DNA of 39,713 nucleotides from a virus: positions 1 through 39,713 of the IMG/VR virus record IMGVR_UViG_3300027722_000014; one strand, given 5' to 3'. Within the stretch, counting starts at the first letter, position 1, and every line of letters starts with the position of its first letter. Shown one piece after another: positions 4,190 to 28,650 of the stretch. A model generated the notes under the pieces. It saw only the letters and a list, made by a program, of their open reading frames with translations. It was not told where the DNA came from and searched no databases. The position numbers and the translations under genes are program-made.

Positions 4190-5527
4190 TTTCATCACTT
4201 CTCGCAGCACGTCATCGAGGGCTGCCGGAGCTGGCTTGACACCATTGTTTTTATCCGGTTTCGGGGCGTCCTCGATCGGCGCCGGAGCCGCTGCCACGAC
4301 CTCAGCGGGGGCCGCCTGCGCGGCTTCCGCCTCTGGCTTGGGCTTGGTGGTCCTGGGCTTCGGTGGCTTCGCCTTGATGACCGTCACCCCCTGCACTGGC
4401 ACCGCCGTTTTCTCCGGCCCGGTGACGAACGCCCCCAGCCGCTGGTTGTAGTAGCGGTTATCGGGCAACGTGATGGTGTCGGGGTCCAGCTCCGGCATCT
4501 CCACCTTGGGTGCCGGGGCGTCGACATACTCACCGGTCGCCGGGTTGAAGTAGGTGCCGTCAGGCAGCGCGATGAGGCCGGCTGTCGGCACCACATGCAA
4601 CGATGGCATCGGACTAGGCTGGATCGGCTGGCTGAGTGACGGTTTCACGTGTGACGCAGGCGCCTCGTCCTCCTCTTCGACCTCAGCCTCCTCGGTTTCC
4701 ATCAGCTTGCTGAATGCCTCCGGCACCGGTGCGGCCGGCAATGGCTGCAGTGGCTTGTTGGCGCCCGGCGTCTGCTGATCCGGGGTCGAGGTGGCATTCT
4801 CGAAGTCGGGCGTGTTCACCATGCCCTGCACCAGCGTCGACTGCGACAGCGCTGCCACCCAGTCCCACTGCGGCTCGGTCAGGATGTTGACATAGGTGAA
4901 CAGCAGTTGTGGGAACGCCTCGTTGGTGAACGACAGGCGAGTGATGCAGGCCTTCACGTTGACGCCGTAATTGGCGAGCAGGTCGCCATGCGCCTTGAGG
5001 TTCTTCAGCGACGACTGCGGCACCCGCAGCGCCATTGGCGTCGCCTGATCGGAACCGATCTGGTGCGGCAGAAGTACCACCACGCGGCGGTAGTCCGAGC
5101 AGGCCTTGGCCTTCTTGCCGGCCGGCGTTACCCGAGAGCCGAACATGTTCTGCGGACACATCGCGCAGGTTGGCGCCTGGAGTTTCGGCGACGACGGGTC
5201 GGGCTTCACGGAATCCAGCGACCAGCAGTCCGGTCGGGTGAATTCGTTCGGATCGAAGCCCTTCTCATAATAGGTCTTCGACAAAAGCGGTGAGCCTTCG
5301 ACCAGCACCACGTCGAGAAACGGCATGGCGAAGCCGTTCTGCTCGTGCCGCTGCGAGCGGCCGTCGGGCAGACGGAAGGTGAACTCCTTGCCCCTGATGG
5401 AGAGCAGCGGGTATGAGGTGGAGACGTTCGAGGTGAACGCCTGATTGCTTAGCGCCTTCATGCGTTCGCGCATGGACTGGCTGATGCTGTTGATCTGCTG
5501 GCTGATGGGTACGATGTTGTTGGTCAT
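4184..5527 (-). CDS. Cys-motif replication-associated protein, possible ssDNA-binding protein
   Basis: The product has 447 residues. The N-terminal 240 residues look folded and include a cysteine cluster (a DCW, then CAMCPQNMFG, then KACSDY within about 50 residues) that could bind zinc or a metal. Residues after 240 are low-complexity Pro/Ala/Glu-rich. Two short related repeats sit in this part: ALPDGTYFNPATGEYV and TLPDNRYYNQRLGAFV, about 35 residues apart. The C-terminal tail is PAALDDVLREVMKE, acidic and amphipathic, as in ssDNA-binding proteins that recruit partners. It lies directly upstream of the prim-pol gene and in the same operon, which suggests a replication accessory such as an SSB. 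I do not recognise a named family. The upstream gene overlaps its start by ATGA. Confidence 0.6.
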   Translation of the reverse strand: MTNNIVPISQQINSISQSMRERMKALSNQAFTSNVSTSYPLLSIRGKEFTFRLPDGRSQRHEQNGFAMPFLDVVLVEGSPLLSKTYYEKGFDPNEFTRPDCWSLDSVKPDPSSPKLQAPTCAMCPQNMFGSRVTPAGKKAKACSDYRRVVVLLPHQIGSDQATPMALRVPQSSLKNLKAHGDLLANYGVNVKACITRLSFTNEAFPQLLFTYVNILTEPQWDWVAALSQSTLVQGMVNTPDFENATSTPDQQTPGANKPLQPLPAAPVPEAFSKLMETEEAEVEEEDEAPASHVKPSLSQPIQPSPMPSLHVVPTAGLIALPDGTYFNPATGEYVDAPAPKVEMPELDPDTITLPDNRYYNQRLGAFVTGPEKTAVPVQGVTVIKAKPPKPRTTKPKPEAEAAQAAPAEVVAAAPAPIEDAPKPDKNNGVKPAPAALDDVLREVMKE

Positions 5528-6101: not shown

Positions 6102-6628
6102 TTGTTTCTCCCGTGAAATTTCGGCCCGCCGGAATGACGGGTGTCGAAGCGGTACCAGGCAACGTTGTCCTTACCGGTCTGTGTAGTGCCCTCGATCCAG
6201 CGGATGCGGCCAACGGCGACGATGTCTGAGCACTGGTCAAGGTAGGGACCAGCTGCCTTGTTGAAGGCCCAGTCGGCATCGAACAGCAGCCATACGCATG
6301 GAGCTAGCTTCTGGAAGTGCATGATCATCGGGTGCAGCAGCGCACGCGTCCAAGGCGGGTTGGTGATAACCGCATCGGCATGGTTGATGAACTTGGTAAT
6401 CTTCAGTGCATCAGTGCCGTCAGGTTCGCTCGTAATATCGGATGCGCATACACAGGTAAGCCCCATCCTGACGAGGGACCGTACTAGATGTCCTTCGCCA
6501 CAGCATGGCTCGGCAAAGGTCCGGATGCGGGCGCGCTTGAGGTGCGGCCACAGTGTTCGTACTGCGGCCGGGTCAAACGTCTGGTATGCGTCCGCCTTGC
6601 GGCGGGGAAAGTTGGATCGCTTCGCCAT
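6098..6628 (-). CDS. SAM-dependent DNA adenine methyltransferase-like protein
   Basis: The product has 176 residues. Motif I reads FAEPCCGEGHL (residues 38-48), where the expected pattern is D/E-P-x-x-G-x-G. Motif IV is TNPPW at 89-93, the N6-adenine or cytosine-N4 amino-methyltransferase signature. It lacks a recognisable target-recognition domain and is short, like other phage Dam-type or rRNA/tRNA-type small methyltransferases. DNA methylation to escape host restriction is the likely role given its place in the replication operon. A non-DNA substrate cannot be excluded. It overlaps the genes on both sides. Confidence 0.75.
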   Translation of the reverse strand: MAKRSNFPRRKADAYQTFDPAAVRTLWPHLKRARIRTFAEPCCGEGHLVRSLVRMGLTCVCASDITSEPDGTDALKITKFINHADAVITNPPWTRALLHPMIMHFQKLAPCVWLLFDADWAFNKAAGPYLDQCSDIVAVGRIRWIEGTTQTGKDNVAWYRFDTRHSGGPKFHGRNK

Positions 6629-15224: not shown

Positions 15225-16274
15225 CTAATGTTTCTGATGCCTATGTCCGCACACCGGGCAGGTGCAGAAATGTATGTCCACTTCGCCTGCGACGATCGGC
15301 GCCTGTTGCACTTCCTGCCGCACATGATAGCGCTCCTGCGCGTCACGCACGGCGCGTTCCGGCAGGCCGGATTCCACGGCAACCTTGGTCCGCGACATGC
15401 CAGCGTCGAACAGCGGCTTAAGTCTGGTGTCAACTTCCTGCGGGTTATGCTTCCTCGGACGACCCACTTTAGGTCGTTTTGAATTATTAGTGACTAATAA
15501 TTCTTTCAGGTCCAGACTAACCTGTGGCTGGCTTATGTCTAACGCCTTGCCGATACTTTCCTGCGACCAGTTGTTGTCCTGATACAGGTACGCAGCAATG
15601 CGCTTGCGGTCGTTCGGCGACAGCTTCTTGCCGCCGATGTTGGAGGCAATGGCGATCTTCAGCCGGCGGGCGTCGGCGGCGTCACCGATGCCGATATGCA
15701 GCACCTGCTTGACCGGCTGGATGCCCAGCTCCTTGGCAAGCGCCAGACGTCGGCTGCCGACCAGCACGACGCCACGCTCGTCGACCAGCGCCGGGAATTC
15801 CGGCACCCATCCGAACGTCGCCAATGATTCGCGCAGCTCCTCCCATGCCGGGTCCTTGCCGGCCTCGGTCAGATGTTCGCGGGTGTTCTTGGAGAAGATG
15901 CCGGTCATCGGGTTGAACGGATCGCGCAGCTTCTCATGGATGTCGGGGCCTGGACGATGCAACTTCTTGCCGTGCAGCCTGAGGTCCTCGAACCTGTAGC
16001 CATTGCGGATGATGACCAACCCGTCGATATGTTCGACACCGTCGCCGAGATAGGCGAGCGCACGGCGGATCATCCACTCAATGGCTTCGCCGTCCTCCGT
16101 CATCCCTTCGTGCATCTTGATGCGCGTCAGGTCGGAGGGAACGGGATGCTTGTAGTCTTTTGCAAGCTCCTCGACTGACAAGGCCACACCAGCGGCCTTG
16201 TCGAGAGCGAGGGCTACGTAAACCACGGCACTGTCAATCGCCAGTGCGTAGTTCACCTTAGCCGGGTTAGTCAT
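15225..16274 (-). CDS. ParB/sulfiredoxin-fold DNA-binding protein 1
   Basis: The product has 349 residues. Residues about 140-190 (PAWEELRESLATFGWVPEFP, then VLVGSRRLALAKELGI) match a ParB-type N-terminal domain, with GSRRL in place of the usual GERR. A helix-turn-helix follows (WSQESIGKALDISQPQVSLD, about 237-256), then a basic linker KRPKVGRPRKHN and a second HTH-like segment (SRTKVAVESGLPERAVRDAQ). The C-terminus HFCTCPVCGHRHQKH is a possible zinc knuckle. The N-terminal 130 residues are not recognised. The start overlaps the stop of the second ParB-like gene. Phage ParB-like proteins may act in partition, as CTP-dependent clamps, as nucleases or as regulators; no parA is seen here. Confidence 0.8.
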   Translation of the reverse strand: MTNPAKVNYALAIDSAVVYVALALDKAAGVALSVEELAKDYKHPVPSDLTRIKMHEGMTEDGEAIEWMIRRALAYLGDGVEHIDGLVIIRNGYRFEDLRLHGKKLHRPGPDIHEKLRDPFNPMTGIFSKNTREHLTEAGKDPAWEELRESLATFGWVPEFPALVDERGVVLVGSRRLALAKELGIQPVKQVLHIGIGDAADARRLKIAIASNIGGKKLSPNDRKRIAAYLYQDNNWSQESIGKALDISQPQVSLDLKELLVTNNSKRPKVGRPRKHNPQEVDTRLKPLFDAGMSRTKVAVESGLPERAVRDAQERYHVRQEVQQAPIVAGEVDIHFCTCPVCGHRHQKH

Positions 16275-17235
16275 TGATCAGCTTCTCCTGCGCTGTGATG
16301 ACCGTGGTGAGCACCTGCACTGCCTCTTGGCAGGCCCTCAGATGCTCTTCCATGGCCGCAGGAGAACGCTCGACCAGCACCGACGGAATTGCGGCATGGG
16401 CGTTGATGTAGCCGAGATGGCGGCGCAGCTGGCTGGATGCCGGCGGCTTGCCGTTGCCCATCAGGCCATGCTCGCGGATACGCTCGCTCATCTCAGCGCG
16501 CTTGTTGTCGATGAAGGTGATCATGCCGGCGTCGGAGCCGGTCTTCTTCATCTCACCTGCAAGCTCCCTGACCTCGGCAGGACCGAGGTTGGCGTCGACC
16601 GAGAGTTCGACGAGCTTCTTGAACGGCACGTCGTTGAGGCTGATCTGCGGCTCCATGCCGAACGTGCGCAGTGCTGACGGCCCGAGCTTCTTGGCGTCCT
16701 TGAAGCCCACCTTGGCGAACTTCTCATGCGCCGCGATCTCGCGGCGGATGTTGTTGACGACACCGTGTTTAACGCCGGTGGCGCGGCCGATGGCGTCATT
16801 CTTCCAGCCACGCTCGACCAGTGTCACGGCGACACTGCGGGCTTCCGCCGGAGTGAGACGCTGCCCACCCTGCTGGTTGAGGGTAGCGGCAAGGGCATGC
16901 AGGTCGGCGTCGACCTTGGCCGACTTGCCATATTCGACATCCAGCACGAGGGCATGGCCGAACTTGACCTTGTTCACTTCATAACCGCCGACACGGGTGT
17001 TGCCGTCGACCAGCCAGTCATTGGCAGTGACGATGATTGGAGGAAACACCGTTTCCTTCATCTGCACCGCGTACTGGGCGACCTGAGCCTTGGGCGCGTA
17101 ATGTTCGGATTCTCTGACTTGGACTCGCCTGTCGGTCGAGAGCTTGCCGAGTTCGAACTGCGGTTCGTCCTGCCATTTGAAGCCGAGACGTTCAATCTCG
17201 ACGACGGCACTGGACTTTGGAGCTTGAGCTAACAT
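16267..17235 (-). CDS. ParB/sulfiredoxin-fold DNA-binding protein 2
   Basis: The product has 322 residues. Residues 36-90 form a ParB N-terminal domain (RRVQVRESEHYAPKAQVAQY, FPPIIVT, WLVDGNTRVGGYE). It is followed by an HTH-bearing region (LTPAEARSVAVTLVERGWKN and AIGRATGVKHGVVNNIRREI) and a helical C-terminal half. VDGNTR in place of GERR is seen in phage ParB-like proteins. It shares little sequence with its downstream neighbour beyond the fold, so the pair is not a recent duplication. A strong hairpin terminator (17279-17320) and tandem GCGTCAAGC repeats lie in its leader. Confidence 0.8.
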   Translation of the reverse strand: MLAQAPKSSAVVEIERLGFKWQDEPQFELGKLSTDRRVQVRESEHYAPKAQVAQYAVQMKETVFPPIIVTANDWLVDGNTRVGGYEVNKVKFGHALVLDVEYGKSAKVDADLHALAATLNQQGGQRLTPAEARSVAVTLVERGWKNDAIGRATGVKHGVVNNIRREIAAHEKFAKVGFKDAKKLGPSALRTFGMEPQISLNDVPFKKLVELSVDANLGPAEVRELAGEMKKTGSDAGMITFIDNKRAEMSERIREHGLMGNGKPPASSQLRRHLGYINAHAAIPSVLVERSPAAMEEHLRACQEAVQVLTTVITAQEKLIND

Positions 17236-19219: not shown

Positions 19220-19404
19220 ACTGCCTCTCCATCAATCTCGAACAGCACGACGCCGAACTCGCCATCGTCACGAAGGCTTGCCTCGGTAATCTGCAGGTCC
19301 TCGAAAGCATCGACCCACGCCAGCTTCTTACGTGCCTCCGATTCGGTGTTGGCAAGAACCCGCACCACAGCGTTGAGCACCACATCGAATGCGAACTCTT
19401 TCAT
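19216..19404 (-). CDS. small unknown protein, 62 aa
   Basis: Strand-helix-strand pattern: MKEFAFDVVLNAVVRVLA, SEARKKLAWVDAFEDL, then ASLRDDGEFGVVLFEIDGE. This resembles small phage proteins with a ferredoxin-like half fold. It overlaps both neighbours by ATGA. No function assigned. Confidence 0.65.
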   Translation of the reverse strand: MKEFAFDVVLNAVVRVLANTESEARKKLAWVDAFEDLQITEASLRDDGEFGVVLFEIDGEAV

Positions 19405-19595
19405 ATCATTAGCTCCGCTTGGCTCTGGTTCAGCAGGTTCACGATCTTGCGGGCAAGTGCTTTGCGCTCGCCCAGTGTTCCAGCACTGATCTCGATGATC
19501 TCGTAGTTCTCATGATCGGCGTTGCAGATGATGACTGTCTCGTCGATCGTGTCGCCCTCTTCAGGGCCGCTCATTTCCCATGGTCCGTCGCTCAT
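19401..19595 (-). CDS. small acidic unknown protein, 64 aa
   Basis: The N-terminus (MSDGPWEMSGPEEGDTIDET) is acidic and probably flexible. It is followed by a strand TVIICNADHENYEIIEIS and a helix ERKALARKIVNLLNQSQAEL. Overlaps of four bases on both sides place it in the same translationally coupled chain. No family recognised. Confidence 0.65.
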   Translation of the reverse strand: MSDGPWEMSGPEEGDTIDETVIICNADHENYEIIEISAGTLGERKALARKIVNLLNQSQAELMI

Positions 19596-19765
19596 CGGTA
19601 GTCTCCTCTGTTGAACAGCCGATCGATCTCGTTGTCGGCAACCTGTTCGGCAAGGTCCTTGATCGCCTCGATCAGGCGATCGGTCTCTTCTTCCTTGAGC
19701 CGGAAGATGTCGCGCAGCACAGCGTCGAGGCTGTCAGACGCGCGGCTGATCTCACGGTGGGTCAT
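19592..19765 (-). CDS. small helical protein, 57 aa
   Basis: From ATG 19765 the sequence reads MTHREISRASDSLDAVLRDI, then FRLKEEETDRLIEAIKDLAE and a short tail. It is a charged helix throughout, suggestive of a helical hairpin. The start overlaps the upstream stop and the stop overlaps the next start (ATGA each). No family recognised. Confidence 0.6.
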   Translation of the reverse strand: MTHREISRASDSLDAVLRDIFRLKEEETDRLIEAIKDLAEQVADNEIDRLFNRGDYR

Positions 19766-19935
19766 TTCGCTTGTTCCTTCTGGATAACGTCGTCGATCTC
19801 ACTGCGCAGGTGGTCGACCTCGCCGTCGAAATCTTCCCAGTTCGCATCGTCTGGGCACTCGTCGAGCAGGTAGCTGGTGAGGATGTCGAACGCTGCCATC
19901 AGCGCCTCCAGCCTCGGTGTCATCGGTGATTTCAT
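19762..19935 (-). CDS. small acidic helical protein, 57 aa
   Basis: I choose ATG 19935, which has AAGGAAAGAATC before it; an upstream ATG at 20004 in the same frame has no ribosome site. The product is mostly helix (MTPRLEALMAAFDILTSYLL, then WEDFDGEVDHLRSEIDDVIQ). The 116 bases upstream hold no clear gene. No family recognised. Confidence 0.6.
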   Translation of the reverse strand: MKSPMTPRLEALMAAFDILTSYLLDECPDDANWEDFDGEVDHLRSEIDDVIQKEQAK

Positions 19936-20051
19936 GATTCTTTCCTTCTTCGTTCCTGCTTCGCCCTGATTAATTTCCCAAGCGAAGGATGTTGATTTGT
20001 GCATGTCGCGTGATTCGCGAATGCCGGCGAACCCACCGACGTGCCACGGTT

Positions 20052-20246
20052 TCATTCTTCCCTCGCGAGCCACGGATATGATCCGCTGTCGTTCAGGATT
20101 GCATCCTCAGCTTCGTCATAGGTCTTGAACTCAGTGGCGTTGCTGCGCCTGTTGCGTGGCACAAGAAATGGCTTCTCGCCTTCCTCCTGCACCAGCTTGG
20201 CATAGCGGTCGACGCCATTGCGTTTGGTCCAGACAATGATCCACAT
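20052..20246 (-). CDS. small unknown protein, 64 aa
   Basis: The sequence MWIIVWTKRNGVDRYAKLVQ continues with a basic stretch and KTYDEAEDAILND. The opening strand (WIIVWT) and later F-K-T-Y-D-E-A-E helix match the strand-helix pattern of several neighbours. A GTG at 20258 overlapping the VWA gene stop is an alternative start and would add four residues. No function assigned. Confidence 0.6.
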   Translation of the reverse strand: MWIIVWTKRNGVDRYAKLVQEEGEKPFLVPRNRRSNATEFKTYDEAEDAILNDSGSYPWLAREE

Positions 20247-26746: not shown

Positions 26747-27337
26747 TCAGGCAAGGCACTCCACGTGGTAAGCCGACACCATGTCGGCAGAAGTGAGGGA
26801 TTTGTTGGCGCGGTTGCCGGCGACGAATTCGCACCATGTGTTCCACCAATGGCGCGAACCGCCAGTGTCGGTACAGATGCGGACATAGTCGGCGATCTTT
26901 TTCCGCTTGGTGGAAGGTTTAACCGATTTGGCGAGCTTGAATGCAGCCTCGCCAAGGCCCAGCCGGCGCAGGTTATGGGTATCGAGACATGCAACTTCCA
27001 GTCCGCATATCTGGGCGACGAAAGAGGCCTTGACGATGCCGAGACCCGGCACGTTGGAGAGCACGTCAATGCATCCGATGACGTCGTTGACGTCGACTGC
27101 GGCAGTGATTGCGGCATGCAGAACGACCGCATGCTCGACGGCATAAGCGTAACCGAGGCGCTTCGAACCGAACAGATATTTCGATTCTGCACCATTGATT
27201 TTGATGTCGGCCATCTGATTTTTGACCGACTGAAGCGGTTGCTGGATGGTCGCCAGCACAAATCCGATGACATCGACGAGGCCTTGCGGCGACGAAAGAG
27301 CATGCGAACGCATGCGCGGCATGTCGCGATCGTACAT
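26747..27337 (-). CDS. HhH-GPD-like DNA glycosylase or lyase
   Basis: The product has 196 residues from ATG 27337, with TTGGACCC before it. The centre, LSNVPGLGIVKASFVAQICG then ACLDTHNLRRLGL, is a helix-hairpin-helix followed by the Asp (residue 119) that is catalytic in the endonuclease III family; a lysine (IVKA) sits one place off the usual position. Phages carry related proteins of unproven activity. Base-excision of a modified or damaged base in host or phage DNA is the straightforward guess. It is the first gene of the leftward region, 39 bases after promoter motif E and with a sigma-70-like promoter 190 bases upstream. Confidence 0.65.
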   Translation of the reverse strand: MYDRDMPRMRSHALSSPQGLVDVIGFVLATIQQPLQSVKNQMADIKINGAESKYLFGSKRLGYAYAVEHAVVLHAAITAAVDVNDVIGCIDVLSNVPGLGIVKASFVAQICGLEVACLDTHNLRRLGLGEAAFKLAKSVKPSTKRKKIADYVRICTDTGGSRHWWNTWCEFVAGNRANKSLTSADMVSAYHVECLA

Positions 27338-27375
27338 TTCTGGGTCCAATTTGTTGGTTTGAGGCAGCTAACTGT

Positions 27376-27404
27376 CTAGGGAAACGGACAATTAGTGCAA
27401 TTTA
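27376..27404 (-). promoter_or_regulatory. 29-nt promoter-like motif, copy E
   Basis: On the leftward strand: TAAATTGCACTAA, then TTGTCCG, then TTTCCCTAG. It precedes the glycosylase-like gene and, like copy A, is preceded by GTC, although here there is no upstream gene stop to conserve. Confidence 0.55.
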
Positions 27405-27527
27405 GACGGCAAATTTCCTAATGAATTCAGCGTTTGAGGCAATTGTCTAATTGTCCACGCGATTTCAGCATGGAGTACGTGTGTATGTGATTCGGAATTT
27501 TTTTTTTTTTCGAAAATGGGTCCCTCT

Positions 27528-27557
27528 TATATACTGACTGTTTTTTCACACAGACAA
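27528..27557 (-). promoter_or_regulatory. sigma-70-like promoter, leftward
   Basis: On the leftward strand TTGTCT (27552-27557), an 18-base spacer and TATATA (27528-27533) followed by AGAGGG. It points to the glycosylase-like gene and the leftward block. It could serve the host polymerase early in infection. Confidence 0.4.
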
Positions 27558-27587
27558 TAAGGACACCAACCCACAACCGACCGACCT

Positions 27588-27618
27588 TGAACCCTTACTA
27601 CGTAGTAGTAAGGGTTCA
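27588..27618. repeat. strong hairpin, 14-bp stem with 3-base loop
   Basis: Arms TGAACCCTTACTAC and GTAGTAAGGGTTCA around GTA, perfect. There is no T run after it on either strand. Confidence 0.75.
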
Positions 27619-27677
27619 GATTCGGTTTTCCGATGGTGTTTAATGGTCGAAAGATGCTGTCCTGCTACCGGAGGTAA

Positions 27678-27703
27678 GGGACAGTTACGTTTACGTAAGT
27701 CCC
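27678..27703. repeat. hairpin with interrupted stem
   Basis: GGGAC, two unpaired bases, TTACGT, loop TT, ACGTAA, GTCCC: 11 base pairs in total with a two-base bulge. Confidence 0.55.
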
Positions 27704-27730
27704 GTGGTGTCGTTTCACCTCTGCCGACTG

Positions 27731-27749
27731 GTATGGAATGTTTCCATAC
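27731..27749. repeat. hairpin, 8-bp stem with 3-base loop
   Basis: Arms GTATGGAA and TTCCATAC around TGT. It shares the 3-base loop of the hairpin at 27588 but not its sequence. Confidence 0.6.
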
Positions 27750-28155
27750 TACGGCTGGTACGCAGCGGGGTGCTGCAGCTAGGACTATGTTTAACGTCGT
27801 TTGCCCAAGCTCTTGGACGTGCCGTCCGCCGAACGCATGCGTCAGGCGAACAAGCTTAAGTTGTATCGGTTTCCTTTCCGTCGTGGCAGCGATGCCGGAC
27901 CAGAGAAAGGTTACGCCGGACTTGTACCGGGTGCTGCAACATCCATTTGCGGATATGCTGTTGGCGCGCTCGGTGGTGTATCGTCTCCCCCGGGTTAGCG
28001 ATGGTCGCAGTTCGCCCATCAAAGCCCGATGGGTTAGCGTGCATCACGTACCGGGCAAGCCCCGAAACGCATCTCCTCTTGTCGCGGCCAGTAGCGCGCT
28101 CGCCCTAGCCTCATGTCTCGCCCGGTGATGTTGGCGGTATGCACTGCACTTCCAC

Positions 28156-28184
28156 CTAGGGAACGCGGCCGATAATGCGGAAAG
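28156..28184 (-). promoter_or_regulatory. 29-nt promoter-like motif, copy F
   Basis: On the leftward strand: TTTCCGCATTAT, then CGGCCGC, then GTTCCCTAG. It would drive leftward transcription through the hairpin-rich region. Beside it, on the plus strand, GGGGCGGGCA is repeated at 28184-28193 and 28194-28203. Confidence 0.55.
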
Positions 28185-28272
28185 GGGCGGGCAGGGGCGG
28201 GCACCCGGCCAACGCCCCCCACCCCCCGCGCCTTTTTTAGGTGCTAGCGAAATACAGGTGAGAAAAAACCCA

Positions 28273-28284
28273 TGTAACACAATT
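28273..28284 (+). promoter_or_regulatory. GTAACACAA motif upstream of the rightward block
   Basis: TGTAACACAATT, the one copy oriented toward the rightward genes, 54 bases before the ribbon-helix-helix gene. Confidence 0.4.
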
Positions 28285-28338
28285 GAATTTAGCCGCTGTC
28301 CAAACTATGTTGCGGCCCATCAGGAGACCCGTAACCCC

Positions 28339-28650
28339 ATGCCTTTCCAGCAGAAACCAGCCACCCTGAGACCCCTGCCGACGCGCGTCACCCAACGCCA
28401 GTACGATCGCCTCATGCAGCACCGGGCGCGCGACCATCTGTCGATCCAGGAGCATGTCAGAAGGTCGTTGGATTATTACCTGGAGATGCTCGACAAACGC
28501 TGGGAGCGCGAGATGATGCTCTCCGGCAAGGCCAATGATGTCGTAAAAGAGCCTCAACCTGTGGCGAAAAAGCTGGCCGTGCCGAAGGTCCCGGCCGTAA
28601 AAACCACGGAAAAAACCCCGAAATCAGCCCCCAAACTGGTCTTCAGGTGA
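28339..28650 (+). CDS. ribbon-helix-helix DNA-binding protein
   Basis: The product has 103 residues from ATG 28339; an in-frame ATG-less extension to 28258 is not used. After a short lead, PLPTRVTQRQYDRLMQHRAR followed by LSIQEHVRRSLDYYLEML has the strand, helix, turn, helix layout of Arc/MetJ-type ribbon-helix-helix repressors. The C-terminal third is a Lys/Pro/Val-rich flexible tail. As the first gene of the rightward block, beside the control region with its inverted repeats, it is a good candidate regulator of the leftward/rightward switch. GGAG lies 14 bases before the start, rather far. Confidence 0.65.
   Translation: MPFQQKPATLRPLPTRVTQRQYDRLMQHRARDHLSIQEHVRRSLDYYLEMLDKRWEREMMLSGKANDVVKEPQPVAKKLAVPKVPAVKTTEKTPKSAPKLVFR

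Follow-up and report, generated by a model that had tools for sequence, protein, structure and literature searches.

A conserved divergent control region of a phage and the candidate iteron-like replication origin in its left half

Introduction

What is kept in a kilobase of phage DNA that contains no gene? We address this question for positions 27338-28338 of IMG/VR virus record IMGVR_UViG_3300027722_000014, a phage fragment of 39.7 kb with an SU10-type portal (39,713 nucleotides, called the window here). The nearest isolates by portal sequence are the Rhizobium phages RHph_TM27A, TM27B, TM29 and TM3_14A, at ~60% identity, and the group, which has cultured members (RHph_TM27A and its kin), is common among virus contigs. 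The region is positioned at the head of a leftward gene block that includes helicase and primase-helicase genes, and to its right runs a rightward operon that begins with an RHH-type gene (28339-28650) and includes the portal. A first-pass annotation, made from the letters of the window, had proposed a loose analogy to the hairpin promoters of phage N4, with an origin of replication or a structured leftward RNA as alternatives.

A blastn search of phage records at distant sensitivity returned no DNA match to the region. We give here a comparison by position, with ~60 related phage contigs collected via the portal and via the RHH protein and read at the corresponding place. Computed from the sequences are the repeat cluster and its geometry, the turnover of the repeat sequence, AT richness, the enrichment of IHF-type boxes in relatives, the covariation of a hairpin and the absence of coding signal. 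A portal scan with the TM27A sequence added few new upstream regions and one with the L050 sequence gave an independent set of loci. Scanning with the pattern TGTCCTTAKTGTCTKT brought up mostly unrelated contigs, and a GC-tract pattern scan only the L006 and L007 contigs, both already known.

Results

A conserved control region without a gene

The first reading of the region as lacking a convincing open reading frame holds: across 27570-28180 no reading frame of the six has a codon-usage score above zero, against +0.15 to +0.5 for every real gene of the window. Frames of 158 aa (minus strand) and 161 aa (plus strand) were considered as a hidden gene and rejected, as they score like wrong frames. 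No tRNA was found in the region. The leftward neighbour (26747-27349), labelled glycosylase-like, matches nothing in Pfam with the cut-off relaxed to E 0.1, so that the label is unconfirmed; the same gene was read by eye at the same place in G001. For the gene at 28339-28650 the RHH assignment comes from the first reading and a conserved N-terminal pattern; a Pfam search gave no match. Elsewhere in the window, two neighbouring ParB-like genes (PHROG matches) lie at 15225-17235.

The run of 13 T residues noted at first is present at 27498-27510, and the next longest homopolymer of the window has 7. Among all 250-bp windows of the 39.7 kb, AT content is highest in those that begin at 27321-27411. 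The sigma-70-like promoter noted at first is not confirmed as a good one, a strict scan of the region having found none; a weak leftward TTGTCT-18-TATATA is readable at 27557-27528. Nor does the sequence earlier called motif F recur in the window as a motif. We conclude that 27338-28338 is a real, conserved divergent control region of the phage and, judging by the related contigs, that it divides into a left half (27338-27630) and a right half (27630-28240).

A repeat array with a kept layout and a changing sequence

The inverted sequence CTAATTGTCC that drew attention to the left half is confirmed at 27386-27395 (minus) and 27447-27456 (plus), with 51 nt between the arms. The 7-mer AATTGTC has three copies in the whole 39.7 kb, all at 27387-27455 and thus within 70 bp, and a fourth copy, matching only in the 6-mer ATTGTC, is ~100 bp off and faces them across the T13/TATATA tract. 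The left half contains:

27387-27392, minus strand: iteron-like site 1, ATTGTC within CTAATTGTCC
27442-27447, plus strand: iteron-like site 2, ATTGTC
27450-27455, plus strand: iteron-like site 3, ATTGTC within CTAATTGTCC, 8 bp after site 2
27457-27552, no strand: AT-rich spacer with T13 (27498-27510) and TATATA (27528-27533)
27553-27558, minus strand: iteron-like site 4, ATTGTC, 103 bp from site 3 and facing it

Site 4 is inside TGTCCTTATTGTCTGT, which is conserved in L006 and similar in L004. The spacer (27457-27552) is a candidate unwinding element, a candidate leftward promoter, or both.

To rank such clusters, 400-bp windows were scanned for clustered 7-mers in each contig separately. The region is the top 7-mer cluster in nine relatives (L004, L012, L015, L019, L022, L028, L098, L100 and G001), and the 7-mers differ from one relative to another: ACAATTA (8/8 copies), ATTGTCC (8/8), AATGGTC (9/9) and ATTTGTA (5/5), with further relatives having ATTTTAA (6/6 copies in the region), GACACTA (5/6), AATTGGC (9/12) and AATTACT (5/6). 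For L004 the top 7-mer cluster is the hairpin sequence described below. In the window, the region ranks only third among the 7-mer clusters of its own contig, and in L020, L023, L096, G002 and most TM27A-like genomes the cluster of the region is not first or is unclear.

The layout is what relatives share. Same-strand sites are 8-14 bp apart and inverted, facing sites are 98-111 bp away, as seen in the window and four relatives and, less regularly, in L028 and G001:

Window: minus 27387, plus 27442, plus 27450, minus 27553
L012: minus 689, plus 740, plus 749, minus 851, minus 860
L098: minus 1261, plus 1309, plus 1322, minus 1422, minus 1431
L022: plus 4169, plus 4178, minus 4280, minus 4288
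L019: triplets at 5240 and 5354

Across the 17 records scanned, all exact 7-mer triplets of the facing layout (5/5) fall in such regions; with 6-mers, the window has two triplets of this kind, one of them in the region. With exact 7-mers, the facing geometry is absent from L100, L096, L015 and L035. An array that is constant in position and variable in sequence points to a DNA-binding protein that changes together with its sites, and it is because relatives keep the repeat layout while the repeat sequence changes that the gene-free stretch looks like an origin. A longer repeat was seen in L040, where a 21-bp sequence (GCACATAGTTTTGCCACAATC) occurs three times in tandem at ~6360-6430, near the AT-rich region.

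AT richness and boxes of the IHF and DnaA types

The AT content of the region exceeds the contig average in 26/26 records, by 2-16 points. The IHF-type box WATCAANNNNTTR, which we take to be the IHF consensus, is found at 11 places in these regions (16 kb) and at 9 in 395 kb elsewhere. Because this box had already been noticed in some sequences of the first set, further loci were fetched for the count, and in this independent test an automatic rule picked, upstream of the portal, the stretch with the highest AT content. These loci, which have no contig in common with the first set and few mutual duplicates (L233 and L235), contain 16 boxes in 30 kb versus 19 in 486 kb; AT richness alone is expected to yield ~1.6 boxes per 30 kb by our own estimate. 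TM27A, whose own repeat region is at 19356-20124 of its record, carries AATCAATGGCTTA within an intergenic stretch of 62% AT. In L061, four DnaA boxes (TTATCCACA) are found within 75 bp (1738-1811) and none elsewhere in the 15-kb contig.

With few sites (3-4) and neither an exact IHF box nor an exact DnaA box in its region, the window is a weak member of its group; the IHF-like site that matches best in it deviates at one position. A peak of GC skew coincides with the region in the window, and the skew turns nearby in G003 and TM27A, though not in G001, G005 and G006.

Of the readings first offered, the comparative evidence (array, AT content and IHF-type boxes) thus favours the origin, and we consider the left half, 27338-27630, most likely to be an iteron-like replication origin, a preference held with appreciable doubt. 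The place of the region at the head of the block with the helicase and primase-helicase genes also speaks for it. Counted against it are the weakness of the window as a member, the inconsistency of GC skew among relatives, the four relatives without the exact facing geometry, the size of the sites, which at 6-8 bp are shorter than plasmid iterons, and the possibility that the clustered sites are operators. The main rival accordingly takes the array as a multi-site operator at which a phage-specific repressor or activator would control the leftward TTGTCT/TATATA promoter, and perhaps the leader, with no part in replication. The sites do surround that readable promoter, what may be its -35 is overlapped by site 4, and the region is divergent and rich in promoters; fast divergence is also a trait of repressor specificities. 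Against this, the AT maximum, the IHF-type boxes and the DnaA cluster of L061 are marks of an origin rather than of an operator. Nor is the RHH protein an obvious binder of the variable sites, as its N-terminal strand is conserved and it has a conserved element of its own, GTAACAC (see below). We regard the operator as unlikely, if worth keeping in view.

A covarying hairpin beside the array

Three hairpins had been described and all are present, two of them perfect with 3-nt loops and the third imperfect:

27588-27618, no strand: perfect 14-bp hairpin, loop GTA on the plus and TAC on the minus strand
27657-27684, no strand: imperfect hairpin CTGTCC/GGACAG with inner TACC/GGTA
27731-27749, no strand: perfect 8-bp hairpin, 3-nt loop

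The 14-bp hairpin is the longest perfect one of the window (the maximum was 11 bp in 60 whole-window dinucleotide shuffles), and shuffling gives P = 0.008 for a pair of perfect hairpins with stems of 8 bp or more within this kilobase. Another perfect hairpin, of 10 bp with a 3-nt loop (GAATTATTAG-TGA-CTAATAATTC), is located in a coding region at 15481-15503.

The comparison of stems that the first-pass annotation had suggested as a check was run on the main hairpin, and the stem passes. Its inner TACTACGTA is kept in relatives and the outer stem is altered on both sides; seven other copies of the TACTACGTA-core hairpin occur in six relatives, near the corresponding place. Among the eight aligned copies, 27 cells are changed on both sides, with no one-sided and no G-U changes. 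Since copies were chosen for at least 8 perfect pairs, covariation of the inner pairs is biased; the four outer pairs, which are outside that selection, are changed on both sides in 13 cells, on one side in none, and are unpaired in three. In the imperfect hairpin (27657-27684), L006 has one C-G to G-C double change. L023 has the main hairpin reversed, and L004 has copies of it in either orientation. This variable orientation, together with the lack of one-sided or G-U intermediates, fits a DNA palindrome no less well than a hairpin in RNA.

No T run directly follows the 14-bp stem (minus-strand scan and sequence), as originally stated, and a leftward intrinsic terminator at 27588-27618 was rejected on this ground. 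Unlike this hairpin, a GC hairpin followed by a T run stands after the gene for protein X (see below) in L019 and others.

The shape of the hairpin had invited the comparison with N4, whose virion RNA polymerase (vRNAP) reads promoters that are short hairpins with a C:G closing pair, a 5'G and a 3'A in the loop, described with a 7-bp stem (PMC4496689). The hairpin of the window is likewise perfect with a 3-base loop of the C-GNA-G type, and its plus-strand loop, C-GTA-G, conforms to the N4 loop rule (PMC4496689). However, searches for the N4 vRNAP core and for PF00940, both positive in the N4 control, found neither in the window (a 39.7-kb fragment), in RHph_TM27A, whose genome is complete, or in six relatives with lengths of 58-68 kb. 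C-GNA-G triloop hairpins of at least 7 bp number one in the window and one each in G001 and G002, and one per genome does not make a set of early promoters; stems in the group are also longer than in N4, at 10-14 bp. The MoxR/VWA gene pair, formerly taken as another N4-like sign, loses its force, because TM27A also has an ATPase and VWA/metallopeptidase pair and is without a single-subunit RNA polymerase. With no such polymerase in the window or the full-length relatives searched and a long-stem hairpin in single copy, the idea that a virion RNA polymerase uses this DNA hairpin as a promoter is largely refuted and is, in our estimation, exceedingly improbable.

The right half: a putative leader between divergent promoters

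The features of the right half are listed below, two of them identified by inspection:

27630-28171, minus strand: putative leftward noncoding leader or RNA, no coding signal
28172-28177, minus strand: CATTAT, candidate -10 of the leftward leader, conserved or similar in relatives (inspection)
28184-28241, no strand: GC tract ending in CCTTTTTTAGG (plus strand), between the divergent promoters
28274-28281, plus strand: GTAACACA, conserved element at the RHH promoter (inspection)
28283-28311, plus strand: candidate rightward promoter TTGAAT-17-TATGTT of the RHH operon

Read from right to left, relatives have the same order of RHH promoter with GTAACAC, GC tract ending in CCTTTTTTAGG, and a leftward unit. 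The spacing of the RHH promoter is also readable in L004 and L006. A GTAACAC(A)-like element is at the corresponding place in L004, L006, L011, L014, L019, L023, L028 and L035, in L035 and L028 paired as GTAAC-N7-GTTAC, and is probably the operator of the RHH protein. The position of the GC tract is conserved and its G-rich strand differs between groups. In L006, an ORF resembling an HNH-type endonuclease (by eye) is inserted between GC tract and RHH gene at 1187-1705.

The leftward unit takes two forms. It is directly the gene of protein X (~200-280 aa) in L011, L014, L019, L020, L022 and L023, and also in L028, L035, L096, L098 and L100. In TM27A-like phages a noncoding leader comes first, and between it and protein X is a small basic ORF (35-97 aa). 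Leaders at this place in relatives are 330-580 nt long, and over its 5' part the leader of the window matches L004 and L006 at ~70% identity. No protein X turned up in the window, L004, L006, L024 and L097, several of which are short contigs; the small ORF follows the leader in L004, L006, L024 and L097 and is absent from the window. Small basic ORFs of 35-97 aa also end the leader in L038, L050, L053, L066, L068, L069, L085 and L097, sitting behind a hairpin and a Shine-Dalgarno sequence, and the versions of TM27A and L050 are alike (VGG..FIKIGR). From the promoter-like elements and the arrangement in relatives we infer a leftward transcript, of which the right half would be the noncoding leader, with a putative function as RNA.

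A stronger version of this idea, close to the structured RNA first suggested, has a leftward ncRNA of ~550-600 nt that would start near 28170, end at the 27588-27618 hairpin and act at the RNA level. The minus strand of 27500-28340 folds with z = -4.75, the hairpin at the 3' end covaries, and relatives have leaders at the same place. The folding signal is nevertheless partly due to the hairpin, and without it the leader gives z = -2.2 in the window, -6.0 in L004, -4.8 in L097, -0.2 in L006 and -1.8 in L024; three-sequence alignments folded on the leftward strand give z from -1.4 to +0.3. A search of the region with the Rfam 15 covariance models returned no family match, and the hairpin, as noted, has no one-sided or G-U changes and varies in orientation. 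The folding and alignment results lend a structured leftward RNA little weight, and we consider it improbable.

Discussion

Under the preferred reading of the left half as an origin, a phage protein would bind the short tandem ATTGTC sites, facing sets of which are separated by ~100 bp of AT-rich DNA. Once bound, it would melt this tract, in relatives with the help of IHF and sometimes DnaA, and the melted tract would allow loading of the phage replication proteins encoded to the left, so that replication may start here. The single perfect palindrome beside the array may be extruded in the DNA or may mark the end of the leftward transcript. That transcript would start at the GC tract and run towards the array, the right half being its noncoding leader. 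A bolder combination, in which the leader RNA is a primer or regulator of replication, the C-GNA-G palindrome is extruded as an assembly or stop site, and initiator and repeats switch together within a fixed layout, strikes us as a long shot.

The closest known systems are the iteron origins of plasmids such as RK2, F, P1 and pSC101 (PMC4980987). As in these, several copies of one short sequence are clustered at a single place with an AT-rich element adjoining, here the AT maximum of the contig with T13/TATATA between facing sites, and relatives add IHF-type boxes and, in one case, DnaA boxes. Plasmid iterons, however, are 17-22 bp long (PMC4980987), whereas the repeats here are 6-8 bp, spaced 8-14 bp, of mixed orientation and arranged in facing sets ~100 bp apart; no Rep protein has been identified here, and the repeat sequence turns over among related phages. 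Because its sites are of 6-8 bp in facing sets, we do not file the region as a plain member of the iteron-origin class. It also resembles oriC of Escherichia coli (PMC4980987) in its AT-rich candidate unwinding region, with IHF-type boxes in relatives and, in L061, a DnaA-box cluster, but most members of the group, the window included, are without an exact DnaA box.

In the literature searched, we found no replication origin described for this phage group. If the reading is correct, the left half would give the group a defined region in which to test for one, and it would be a case in which related phages share the layout of an origin but not the sequence recognised there. The initiator should then be findable as the protein that changes together with the repeat.
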